DNA from: a virus
Length of the DNA stretch: 20,131 nucleotides
Direction: 5' to 3' (one strand)
IMG/VR virus record: IMGVR_UViG_3300032117_000193
Coordinates: 1-20,131 of that record
Made by a program: the position numbers and the translations under genes. Position 1 is the stretch's first letter, and each line of letters starts with the position of its first letter. The notes beneath the pieces were generated by a model. The model was not told the DNA's origin, did not search any database, and saw nothing but the letters and a program-made list of their open reading frames with translations. Of this stretch, positions 2,054 to 19,204 are shown one piece after another.

Positions 2054-2464
2054 ATGTCAATGGAATTTTTAAAAAGTCTTCGCAAAGCACCGATAAATGA
2101 AAGTTTTGAAGGAGCCTTAATGGCTCGTCTTGAACAGGCAGTTGGTAAAATTAATGAATCTCATGATCCCCAAGATCATGTAGCGTTTGATATTCCTTTA
2201 CTAATTCGTATATTTGAATTAGTACGTGAAGGTGCTAAAACAGATGTTGATGTTCATGATATTACAGAACGCATTTTATCTATTAAAAACAAAGGTGTTC
2301 TAACAATGGATGATTATGCTCATATAGCAGGTCCAATTACAAAAGGTGAAGTTCCTGATCACGATATGGACGAAGCGGATGATATTGAACACGGTTATCC
2401 AATGATGCCAAAAGAAGATTTTAATATTAATAATTTAAAGGCTTTAGCCGGTATCTATAAATAA
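2054..2464 (+). CDS. Small late phage protein with INE-S prohead-protease-like sites
   Basis: 136 aa, starting one base after the stop of the fibre gene; a second ATG two codons later (2060) is an equally possible start. I do not recognise the family. The N-terminus is basic (MEFLKSLRKAP) and is followed by INES at 14-17, with a second INES at 33-36. Both fit the (I/L)-x-E|(S/A/G) cleavage pattern of the T4 prohead protease gp21. The rest is acidic and probably helical, with a DHDMDEADD stretch near residues 103-111. It could be a head-core or internal protein, or a conserved structural accessory. The stop codon region contains the late promoter that drives the nuclease gene. Confidence 0.7.
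   Translation: MSMEFLKSLRKAPINESFEGALMARLEQAVGKINESHDPQDHVAFDIPLLIRIFELVREGAKTDVDVHDITERILSIKNKGVLTMDDYAHIAGPITKGEVPDHDMDEADDIEHGYPMMPKEDFNINNLKALAGIYK
2456..2463 (+). promoter_or_regulatory. T4-type late promoter, exact TATAAATA
   Basis: A perfect TATAAATA overlaps the stop codon of the preceding gene and lies 30 bases before the ATG of the exported nuclease, with AAAGGAG in between. This matches the sigma-gp55 late promoter consensus of T4-like phages and implies late expression of the nuclease. Confidence 0.65.
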
Positions 2465-2493
2465 TAGCACTTAACTCAAAGGAGTACTACTTA

Positions 2494-3318
2494 ATGAAGA
2501 AATATCTTTTAGGCTTGGTTTTAGCCTTAGTTGCTGTCAGCAGTTTCGCATGGACACAACGTCAACCATTCCCCGTACAACAATGTCAAGTACATGCCCC
2601 ATACGGATTTCCACAAACACAACGTCAACTACAACCAATTTGCCAACAGGCATATCTAGTTGGTTACGATGCGGCCGCAAAGTTACCTAATTATGTTATG
2701 TATGAATTGCTACCACAAAACGCATTAGGTTGTGTAGCACGTACAAACGCATTTGCTCCAAATCAATTTGTTCCTAATGGTGCTACTCCTAAAGATTACG
2801 CCGCAACAGGTTACGACAAAGGGCACATGGCTCCGGACGGAGACCTATCATGGGATCCACAAGTTGAATATGAATCATTCCTAATGACCAACATGAGCCC
2901 ACAAGCAGGTTCATTGAATCGTGGTATTTGGAAACTACTAGAAACTAGTGTACGTGGTTGGGCAGTACAACGCAACCAATCATACACAGTTATCGCAGGT
3001 GGTGTATACGGTCCTGGCGATAAAACAATCGGTGCTGGAGTAGTTGTTCCGCACGGTTTCTACAAGATTGTTATCAACAATGCCACTAAAGAAATCGCAG
3101 GTTGGGGATTCCCACACACAGCACCATATCCAAACTTGGGTAATGATCTAACTAAATTCCGTGTTCCTGTTGCTACTATCGAGCAAGACGCTGGTATCAA
3201 GTTTGCTTTCCCAGCAGGTGCTGTAGAACTACAACCAGGCAAAGAATGGCCAGTTGATTTTGGAAAATTAACTCAAATGAAACGCCAAAAATGCGGAGCG
3301 AATGCTTCGGACGATTGA
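2494..3318 (+). CDS. Exported DNA/RNA non-specific endonuclease (NucA/Serratia nuclease family)
   Basis: 274 aa, ATG at 2494 behind a strong AAAGGAG at 2478-2484. Residues 1-19 form a classic Sec signal peptide: KK, a hydrophobic core rich in Leu/Val/Ala, and an SFA cleavage site. The mature part carries the beta-beta-alpha-Me nuclease signature: DKGHMAP at 108-114 with catalytic His111, then MTNMSPQ and LNRGIW with Asn142 as the likely Mg ligand, and Glu150. The spacings His-Asn (31) and Asn-Glu (8) closely match Serratia nuclease (30 and 8). The usual DRGH arginine is replaced by Lys109. Four cysteines (31, 50, 80, 267) could form disulphides outside the cytoplasm. Such enzymes cut DNA and RNA without sequence preference. 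A late promoter precedes it, so it acts late, probably in the periplasm or outside the cell. Confidence 0.92.
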   Translation: MKKYLLGLVLALVAVSSFAWTQRQPFPVQQCQVHAPYGFPQTQRQLQPICQQAYLVGYDAAAKLPNYVMYELLPQNALGCVARTNAFAPNQFVPNGATPKDYAATGYDKGHMAPDGDLSWDPQVEYESFLMTNMSPQAGSLNRGIWKLLETSVRGWAVQRNQSYTVIAGGVYGPGDKTIGAGVVVPHGFYKIVINNATKEIAGWGFPHTAPYPNLGNDLTKFRVPVATIEQDAGIKFAFPAGAVELQPGKEWPVDFGKLTQMKRQKCGANASDD

Positions 3319-3342
3319 CCAAAATAGTAAAAAGGATTGTTT

Positions 3343-3690
3343 ATGAAAACACTTAGAGATTACATCAACTTAATAGAATCAAACGAGCAAGGTGTGGCGG
3401 AAGGCTCCGGGCAATTGACCGATAAAGAAATCTTAGAAATAGGAACTAAATGGGCTAAGGAGCCAGGATGGTACGAGTTTGAAAGAAATGATTTTGTAAG
3501 GTGTGTTAAAGAAATGTTGGGAGACTTGCCCGATAAAGAAATCTTAGAAATAGGAACTAAATGGGCTAAGGAGCCAGGATGGTACGAGTTTGAAAGAAAT
3601 GATTTTGTGGCGTGTGTTAGAGATATAGAATCTAAATTAGCAAGACCGAGGCAAGGTGTGGCGGAAGGTAAAAGAAGAGATGGAAAATGA
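3343..3690 (+). CDS. Small late protein with T4-IP-like N-terminus and a duplicated 37-residue module
   Basis: 115 aa. The ATG at 3343 is preferred because AAAAGGA lies at 3330-3336. The N-terminus MKTLRDYINLIES resembles the capsid-targeting sequence of T4 internal proteins (MKTYQEFIAE). Two GVAEG motifs (17-21 and 105-109) bracket the body. Between them are two almost identical 37-residue units (25-61 and 62-98), each with DKEILEIGTKWAKEPGWYEF and a C-terminal FVxCV helix. The C-terminus is a basic tail. The duplication is nearly perfect in DNA, so it is recent. No enzyme motif is visible. A packaged internal protein cut at LIE-S and GVAE-G is my inference; otherwise the gene is a hypothetical phage protein. 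Confidence 0.7.
   Translation: MKTLRDYINLIESNEQGVAEGSGQLTDKEILEIGTKWAKEPGWYEFERNDFVRCVKEMLGDLPDKEILEIGTKWAKEPGWYEFERNDFVACVRDIESKLARPRQGVAEGKRRDGK
3387..3668 (+). repeat. Identical 18-bp direct repeats encoding QGVAEG
   Basis: GCAAGGTGTGGCGGAAGG occurs at 3387-3404 and again at 3651-3668, in the same reading frame, flanking the duplicated module. The peptide QGVAEG recurs exactly. Identity at all codon positions suggests recent copying of the segment rather than protein-level convergence. Confidence 0.85.
3419..3608 (+). repeat. 111-bp tandem duplication inside the coding sequence
   Basis: Bases 3419-3497 and 3530-3608 are identical over 79 bp at a period of 111 bp (37 codons). Similarity extends a little further at both ends (TTG-CC before; the GTGTGTTA stretch after). 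The period is a multiple of three, so the frame is kept. Confidence 0.92.
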
Positions 3691-4850: not shown

Positions 4851-5405
4851 TTAATTAAGTATAGCAAGCGGTCTAGTGAAACGCTTCCCCAAATAGTCGA
4901 TGACTGCTAGGTTACTGTCTGCTACTTCTTCTATATAGGTTGTAGGTGTTGCGTGAGGTAATACTATATTTGCTAGAGTTTCCCCTAGTTCACTTTCCAT
5001 TGTAATACCGTATTTGGTACATAGGTGTTTGATTCTACTATTAGTACTCAAGCACACCATAAACCCTTTAAGTATGCCATGTGTACGGCAGTATTGTATA
5101 CAACGTTTCATTAGTTTATTACCCATGCCCTGTCCCTGATACTCTTTGAGAACAGAGAATGCCAGTTCCATTTCACCTTCTAAGGCAATATGCCCAATGG
5201 CAACAAACTCTAGTTGGTCATTCTCTATAGCAAAGAGAACATGCCGATCAGGATTGGCTTCAAAGCCATCGCAAAGGGTGTCAATAATTGTGTCACTGAG
5301 TGGGCTAGCAAACCTAAGGACCTTAGAATCGGCATCCAAGGACTTAAGATGCGTACGGTATTTGCCATATTCATGTGGCAATACACGGCGAACTGTTGTA
5401 AGCAT
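4851..5405 (-). CDS. GNAT-family N-acetyltransferase
   Basis: 184 aa, ATG at 5403-5405, three bases after the stop of the upstream 32-aa gene, so probably translationally coupled. The acetyl-CoA binding motif A is clear: a strand ELAFSV (80-85), then LKEYQGQGMGNKLMKRCIQYCR with Q90-G-Q-G-M-G95 matching Q/R-x-x-G-x-G/A. A second strand FMVCLS (115-120) and TNSRIKHLCTKYGI fit motif B. The N-terminus holds the acceptor side. Substrate cannot be told from sequence; GNATs modify small molecules, protein N-termini or lysines, or tRNA. Because the gene stands in a minus-strand accessory island under its own promoter, modification of a host target or detoxification is possible, but this is inference. 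Confidence 0.88.
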   Translation of the reverse strand: MLTTVRRVLPHEYGKYRTHLKSLDADSKVLRFASPLSDTIIDTLCDGFEANPDRHVLFAIENDQLEFVAIGHIALEGEMELAFSVLKEYQGQGMGNKLMKRCIQYCRTHGILKGFMVCLSTNSRIKHLCTKYGITMESELGETLANIVLPHATPTTYIEEVADSNLAVIDYLGKRFTRPLAILN

Positions 5406-6744: not shown

Positions 6745-7158
6745 ATGAATGTCGTAGAAATTAAAACCCTTGTTGATATTACTGCCACTGGCATAATTCG
6801 ATTAAATCAAGGTACAGTTGAACAACTAAATCAAAATCGTAATTTCGTTACTTTAAATCAATGTATCGAAATTCGAAGTCTTATTTCCTACGATGAGAAA
6901 CCTTATGTTGATGAGGTAGACATTAAAGGCATGGGCTTTGGCACAAAATTTAAAGGTAAACAAAAAGTTTGGACATTTAGATTTGAAACAGACCGTCCAC
7001 AAGTGTTTGGCGAAAACTGTGAATTGTTAATTGAAGATCTCAACCAAGTTCCGATGATTAAAAATCTAACAGAATCGGTAAATATAGACATGAGTGTATT
7101 TGATACTACATCTGTAGATTTGAAAAATACAATTATTAGGCATCCAAGAGGCATCTAA
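6745..7158 (+). CDS. Conserved T4-like phage protein, function unknown (137 aa)
   Basis: The layout is familiar from T4-like cyanophage hypothetical proteins: KTLVDITATG(I)xRxNQGT near the start, Q.RNF.T..QC(I/L)E(I/L)RS, VDIKGMGFG.KFKGK with VWTF.F, and a C-terminal LLIEDLNQVP.IKNL.E(S)(V/I)NID...NTII. One Cys in the middle (Cys41) is part of that pattern. Length agrees with the group. The role is unknown; mixed alpha/beta without enzyme motifs. The ribosome site is weak (AGGT). It lies behind its own late-promoter box and is followed by a membrane-protein gene. That T4-like phages keep it suggests a core rather than accessory function. Confidence 0.8.
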   Translation: MNVVEIKTLVDITATGIIRLNQGTVEQLNQNRNFVTLNQCIEIRSLISYDEKPYVDEVDIKGMGFGTKFKGKQKVWTFRFETDRPQVFGENCELLIEDLNQVPMIKNLTESVNIDMSVFDTTSVDLKNTIIRHPRGI

Positions 7159-18901: not shown

Positions 18902-19204
18902 ATGCCAAATATATCAGTTCAAGGGGATACTAATACACACGGGGGTGCTCCGTTAAATCAGGGCCTATCCGGAAATGTAAACGCAGGGAACAAACCTGTT
19001 GCTACTGTGGGCAGTAGTAGTTCTTCGAATGATAGTGAGTACAATCCTAGAACTCATCCTCAAGGCATAGCAGGTAATCAAGTAGCGTCAGTTGGCTCTT
19101 CAAACGTATTTGTGAATAATAAAGCAGTACACAGAGTTGGTGATGCTAGAAAAGACGGATCCGAAGCAGGTCCGGGAATTAGTTCAGTTAAGGTAAACGG
19201 ATAA
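18902..19204 (+). CDS. PAAR-repeat spike-tip protein (T4 gp5.4-like)
   Basis: 100 aa. The C-terminal half has the PAAR pattern: QVASVGSSNVFVNNKAVHRVGD (60-81) then ...GPGISSVKVNG. The N-terminal half has a weaker copy: GDTNTHGGAP (8-17) and ...KPVATVGS. Histidines 13, 52 and 77 could bind the metal at the cone tip; no Cys is present, whereas many PAAR proteins use three His and one Cys. In T4-like phages gp5.4 caps the cell-puncturing spike. The stop overlaps the start of the next gene (TAATG). Confidence 0.88.
   Translation: MPNISVQGDTNTHGGAPLNQGLSGNVNAGNKPVATVGSSSSSNDSEYNPRTHPQGIAGNQVASVGSSNVFVNNKAVHRVGDARKDGSEAGPGISSVKVNG

Follow-up and report, generated by a model that had tools for sequence, protein, structure and literature searches.

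A predicted exported nuclease behind a T4-type late promoter in a large family of T4-like phages

Why should a T4-like phage encode a nuclease that appears to be sent out of the host cytoplasm late in infection? The question is raised by a gene at positions 2494-3318 of a 20,131-nt stretch of viral DNA (IMG/VR record IMGVR_UViG_3300032117_000193, positions 1 to 20,131), which as a whole is called the window here. A preliminary description, made from the letters of the window, regarded the gene as an exported non-specific nuclease under an exact late promoter and considered the combination unusual for this kind of phage. We examined the protein, its relatives and the region upstream of its start codon, and weighed four explanations of its role.

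The nuclease and its predicted export signal

The coding region has the following features.

2494..3318, plus strand: predicted exported DNA/RNA non-specific nuclease, 274 aa, ATG start (PF01223, phrog_14168, PDB relatives, AlphaFold/Foldseek)
2494..2550, plus strand: predicted Sec-type signal peptide, residues 1-19, predicted cleavage A19-W20 (rule-based, homologue comparison)
2740..2742, plus strand: Arg83, counterpart of the family's conserved arginine (invariant across homologues)
2818..2826, plus strand: Lys109-Gly110-His111 of the D-K-G-H motif, His catalytic (sequence, homologue alignments)
2917..2919, plus strand: Asn142, metal ligand position (invariant across homologues)
2941..2943, plus strand: Glu150, catalytic position (invariant across homologues)

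PF01223 (DNA/RNA non-specific endonuclease, NUC family) is the sole Pfam family of this open reading frame (140 bits; cut-off 23), and residues 1-237 match the nuclease family phrog_14168 of PHROGs with 120 bits. The solved structures retrieved by a PDB sequence search are those of NucA, EXOG, EndoG and Serratia nuclease. An AlphaFold model based on a 42-sequence alignment (mean pLDDT 91.4) resembles EXOG, EndoG, CPS-6, NucA and Serratia nuclease in Foldseek (E about 1e-16 to 1e-19) and superposes on NucA with an rmsd of 2.4-2.5, so the modelled protein has the beta-beta-alpha metal nuclease fold of NucA, EndoG and Serratia nuclease. R83, H111, N142 and E150 are invariant in alignments of phage and bacterial homologues. 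The complete NucA-type active site that had been read from the letters (His111, Asn142, Glu150) is accordingly in place, together with R83, and the frame is identified by its sequence as a full-length, conserved nuclease of the NUC family.

The catalytic motif departs from the textbook form, and it had been feared that the change from Arg to Lys in DRGH might leave the enzyme inactive. The change itself is real: DKGH replaces DRGH in all 92 distinct phage homologues, and phage K64-1 and L101, a homologue from Bacteroidales, have the same lysine and both lie within the NUC family. Because the lysine is retained family-wide beside an invariant catalytic set, which is unlike a loss-of-function change, inactivity owing to Lys109 seems unlikely. 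The protein shares with Anabaena NucA, the Serratia marcescens nuclease and EndoG/EXOG the fold, the catalytic His, Asn and Glu and the conserved Arg; NucA and the Serratia enzyme are exported proteins. Unlike all of these, it has Lys for Arg in DRGH, has a C-terminal extension in which a CGANAS-type tail is conserved, and is encoded and regulated by a phage.

The N-terminus reads MKKYLLGLVLALVAVSSFA up to the predicted cleavage site, followed by WTQR, with a lysine-rich beginning and K/R in the n-region, a hydrophobic core reaching a Kyte-Doolittle peak of 3.2 over 9 residues, and small residues at -3 and -1. Applying the same rules (n-, h- and c-region, small residues at -3/-1) to 82 distinct homologous signal regions, we found K/R within residues 2-5 and a strongly hydrophobic core in every one, and Ala at residue -1 in 78, while the intervening letters vary. 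A functional Sec-type export signal would explain why these features are kept although the letters change, and the signal peptide claimed earlier is thereby upheld by prediction. Four cysteines of the nuclease are also conserved in the homologues.

Distribution, constraint and genomic setting

Relatives of the nuclease are common, and the notion that the gene is unusual could not be maintained. In IMG/VR, a scan found 397 pattern matches, of which at least 382 are stretches encoding relatives; the best 80 of these 382 are 76-93% identical to the window nuclease over nearly the full length. Annotated phages are represented by 34 matching records, all below 60% identity. Among them are phages of cultured Gram-negative hosts with distant nucleases and signal-like N-termini, i.e. 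the RaK2/K64-1 group, XaC1, GN1/YerA41 and Phosso, and the label 'periplasmic' is already attached to some of these homologues by annotation ('Periplasmic DNA/RNA non-specific endonuclease' in the Klebsiella phages K64-1/RaK2). They resemble the window gene in combining a phage NUC domain, a signal-like N-terminus and a Gram-negative host, but are only 28-35% identical and lie in a different genomic setting; in YerA41 a sigma-70-type promoter is annotated nearby, and a late promoter is not noted there.

Related contigs support the assignment of the carriers to T4-like phages. T4-type major capsid protein gp23 is encoded on three large related contigs (G003, G005 and G008), all of which also have the T4 prohead protease and two of which, G003 among them, have the T4 portal; on a fourth (G007) the gp23 match is short and partial. 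The link between the window and this group is NrdA: the window's copy shares 86-89% with its counterparts in G003 (86%), G011 and G013. NrdA is only 48% identical to its counterparts in G001 and G008, whereas the nuclease shares 82-88% with the same two.

Prokaryote genomes present a different picture. A single-sequence scan of 84,980 of them found no close bacterial relative, and the best 80 matches listed by an alignment-based scan are about 31-43% identical. Within the databases searched, the close nuclease family therefore appears to be phage-specific, and we reject a recent transfer from the host.

Between phages, the nuclease retains 79-93% amino-acid identity, yet 36-59% of the four-fold sites differ. 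Across the distinct homologues, the signal features, DKGH, the catalytic residues and the cysteines are kept while synonymous sites have strongly diverged. The high protein identity is therefore due to strong constraint and cannot come from recent transfer alone, and recent spread of one gene copy is rejected as its sole cause; judged from these substitution patterns, the nuclease is under strong purifying selection. For comparison, gp23 is 77-79% and the portal 57% identical among three related phages, which places the nuclease at about the level of gp23 and above the portal. Conservation of this capsid-like degree in hundreds of phage contigs makes it unlikely that the gene is a mere passenger.

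Conservation equal to that of the major capsid protein could also be expected of a nuclease that rides on the virion and is used at entry or against nucleic acid at the surface. For YerA41, the distant homologue is indeed annotated as 'phage particle associated protein', and in the relatives of cluster 3 the gene directly precedes a terminase-like gene (judged by eye). However, a protein with a Sec signal is normally taken out of the cytoplasm, the site of head and tail assembly, and carry-over is likely in the YerA41 particle list because it also includes polymerases and helicases. Moreover, neighbour genes differ widely among the relatives, and neither a conserved operon partner nor a conserved structural neighbour was found. 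We regard a virion-borne enzyme as quite improbable. Since its neighbours vary so widely between phages, the nuclease behaves as a single-gene cassette.

Several other genes deserve mention in their own right. A GNAT acetyltransferase is encoded at 4851-5405 on the minus strand of the window, and in several relatives (cluster 11) GNAT homologues are also encoded close to the nuclease. A PAAR-motif protein (PF05488) at 18902-19204 adjoins thyX and a cold-shock-like ORF; PAAR-motif proteins are typical of the contractile tail tip. No known RNA family or tRNA was found in the window. The gene just after the nuclease (3340-3690) contains a 101-nt tandem duplication (94%) with two exact copies of GCAAGGTGTGGCGGAAGG, coding QGVAEG. 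This linker, often in near-identical DNA, also separates unrelated domains of long proteins in relatives (L035 2955-6113, L026 3959-5962, L039, L045 and L070), with up to 5 copies in 1052 aa. In L026 3959-5962, a weak twin-arginine signal-like match (residues 321-339) directly follows a linker. The VAE of QGVAEG resembles the L/I-X-E motif of the T4 prohead protease (PMC9026906), and capsid targeting might be the function of N-terminal sequences like MKTLRDYI and MKAREFIFE. The QGVAEG proteins may be modular capsid-packaged proteins that are cut at the linkers.

Late promoter and leader hairpin

Upstream of the start codon, four features are distinguished.

2456..2463, plus strand: T4-type late promoter element TATAAATA (-10 region), sharing letters with the stop codon of the preceding gene
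2464..2493, plus strand: 5' leader with a degenerate inverted repeat, present as an intact hairpin in relatives
2464-2472 and 2482-2490, plus strand: left arm ATAGCACTT and right arm GAGTACTAC of the repeat, 7 of 9 pairs possible
2479..2484, plus strand: Shine-Dalgarno AAGGAG (sequence)

The element TATAAATA sits 31 nt upstream of the start codon; the late motif described for cyanophages is NATAAATA (PMC2984593). By frequency, neither the exact 8-mer (2 seen, 2.4 expected) nor its TAAATA core (20 seen, 30 expected) is enriched in the window, and we dropped the idea that the 8-mer is a promoter on its face. The case was therefore built on position and on relatives. Of the 14 plus-strand TAAATA in the window, four precede a gene start by 24-45 nt, against an expectation of about 0.4; they stand before the nuclease gene, the ORF at 6745, and the genes for a virion structural protein (8737) and for a tail-spike-like protein (11461). 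In 33 of 42 distinct relatives TAAATA occurs within 60 nt upstream of the nuclease (shuffles 5.8, maximum 15), almost always 28-37 nt before the ATG, and in a larger set it lies within 45 nt in 45 of 69 distinct upstreams. Most of the remaining 24 start close behind a same-strand gene, from which the nuclease may be read. Of the 'exact late promoter' in the preliminary description, the presence of TATAAATA stands and is strengthened by position and by the relatives, but the exact match as such is at chance frequency. Taken together, the sequence evidence supports a T4-type late promoter in front of the nuclease.

The leader between TAAATA and ATG adds a second, partial layer of predicted control. 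It folds at -6 kcal/mol or below in 12 of the 45 distinct promoter-bearing leaders, compared with a mean of 1.3 and a maximum of 4 in 200 shuffles, while of 57 comparison leaders, taken from other genes that have TAAATA equally spaced, only 2 do so. The left arm follows TAAATA directly, and the Shine-Dalgarno lies within or next to the right arm. A co-varying hairpin is seen in ten relatives (L002, L004, L036, L041, L062, L070, L071, L237, L239 and L240), with compensatory pairs at stem positions +1 to +7 in which both sides change; for instance, +5 occurs as T-A, C-G, A-T or T-G and +1 as G-C, A-T or G-T.

Transcription from T4 late promoters starts about 6 nt below the element, which would interrupt the left arm so that the fold is mostly lost. 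Correspondingly, in transcripts begun at that point the strongest leaders are predicted to fold at only about -1 to -4 kcal/mol instead of about -12, and the predicted openness of the Shine-Dalgarno shifts modestly on average (0.46 to 0.58). The T4 genes e, soc, 49 and I-TevI have a hairpin over the ribosome-binding site and are translated only late (PMC3014915, PMC2988022). In about a quarter of the promoter-bearing relatives, the predicted hairpin resembles this lock of gene e (lysozyme), with the late promoter at the left arm of a hairpin covering the ribosome-binding site. It differs from the T4 cases in preceding an exported nuclease and in being confined to part of the family. In the window itself the arms can form 7 of 9 pairs, and the hairpin is unstable and not predicted to form; its left and right arms there belong to different types, as if recombined. 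The predicted lock occurs in 12 of 37 relatives with a same-strand upstream gene and in 0 of 5 with an opposite one (Fisher P 0.30), and a rule linking it to same-strand upstream genes is unsupported.

A possible role at lysis

An exported, late and strongly conserved nuclease could serve the phage in several ways. It may form a barrier in the periplasm that destroys DNA injected by superinfecting phage, much as host endonuclease I breaks down superinfecting T4 DNA. The export signal, the non-specific nuclease family and the presence of a phage-specific, strongly selected gene in many phages all agree with such a barrier. Exclusion, however, would be most useful early, whereas the gene has a late promoter and, in some relatives, a lock against early translation, and we consider this role unlikely, though still worth serious attention. 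In the literature searched we found no text that deals directly with periplasmic nucleases encoded by phages or with endonuclease I and superinfecting T4 DNA.

The enzyme could also act on the surroundings of the host, turning extracellular nucleic acid into nucleotides and phosphate, loosening biofilm or blocking DNA uptake. There is a precedent in the CJIE elements of Campylobacter, whose exported DNases inhibit transformation and biofilm formation (PMC4372405), and CJIE4-type relatives turn up in our phage search. The Campylobacter matches are about 26-27% identical to the window nuclease. Like the streptococcal prophage DNases (Spd), the CJIE1/2/4 enzymes are phage- or prophage-encoded and exported, but both belong to lysogenic elements that serve a living host. 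No lysogeny gene was recognised among the scanned ORFs of the window, and late expression, probably shortly before lysis, would leave little time for such a benefit. This role appears improbable.

We tentatively favour a third possibility, which has a reasonable though by no means assured chance of being right: a late, exported nuclease that acts at and after lysis and clears nucleic acid. The nuclease would be made late and exported through the host Sec machinery, and would fold in the periplasm, where the four conserved cysteines could form disulfides. It would be active there and in the lysate; by degrading the host's DNA and RNA during opening of the cell, it would keep progeny from being trapped in nucleic-acid debris. 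Export would separate the enzyme from replicating phage DNA, and late-only expression would ensure that no nuclease is present in the periplasm during entry of the phage's own genome or that of a sister. In about a quarter of the promoter-bearing relatives, the hairpin would block translation of read-through early transcripts, a feature that has apparently decayed in the window. A role at lysis fits better because of the late promoter control and the early-translation lock in some relatives, and we infer that a late exported nuclease suits lysis and the lysate best, then superinfection exclusion, and last the use of external nucleic acid as food.

Exported NUC nucleases of phages were already known by annotation, and exported DNases of lysogenic elements by experiment (PMC4372405). 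A large, late-controlled family in T4-like phages, with a lysozyme-type lock in part of its members, appears to be undescribed in the literature searched. More speculatively, and with rather less confidence than in the lysis role itself, widespread T4-like phages may keep a phage-specific exported nuclease silent until late, partly through an RNA lock of the lysozyme type. In addition to holin and endolysin, the nuclease would then be a third function of the lysis phase, removing host nucleic acid to let progeny disperse. Through the lock, the importance of timing could be tested cleanly by genetics. If the nuclease acts in the periplasm before lysis, it would be a simple barrier of phage against phage. 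If it acts at lysis, these phages would manage the nucleic-acid debris of the cells they burst, which would bear on burst dynamics, on the DNA available for transformation and on the turnover of environmental DNA and RNA.
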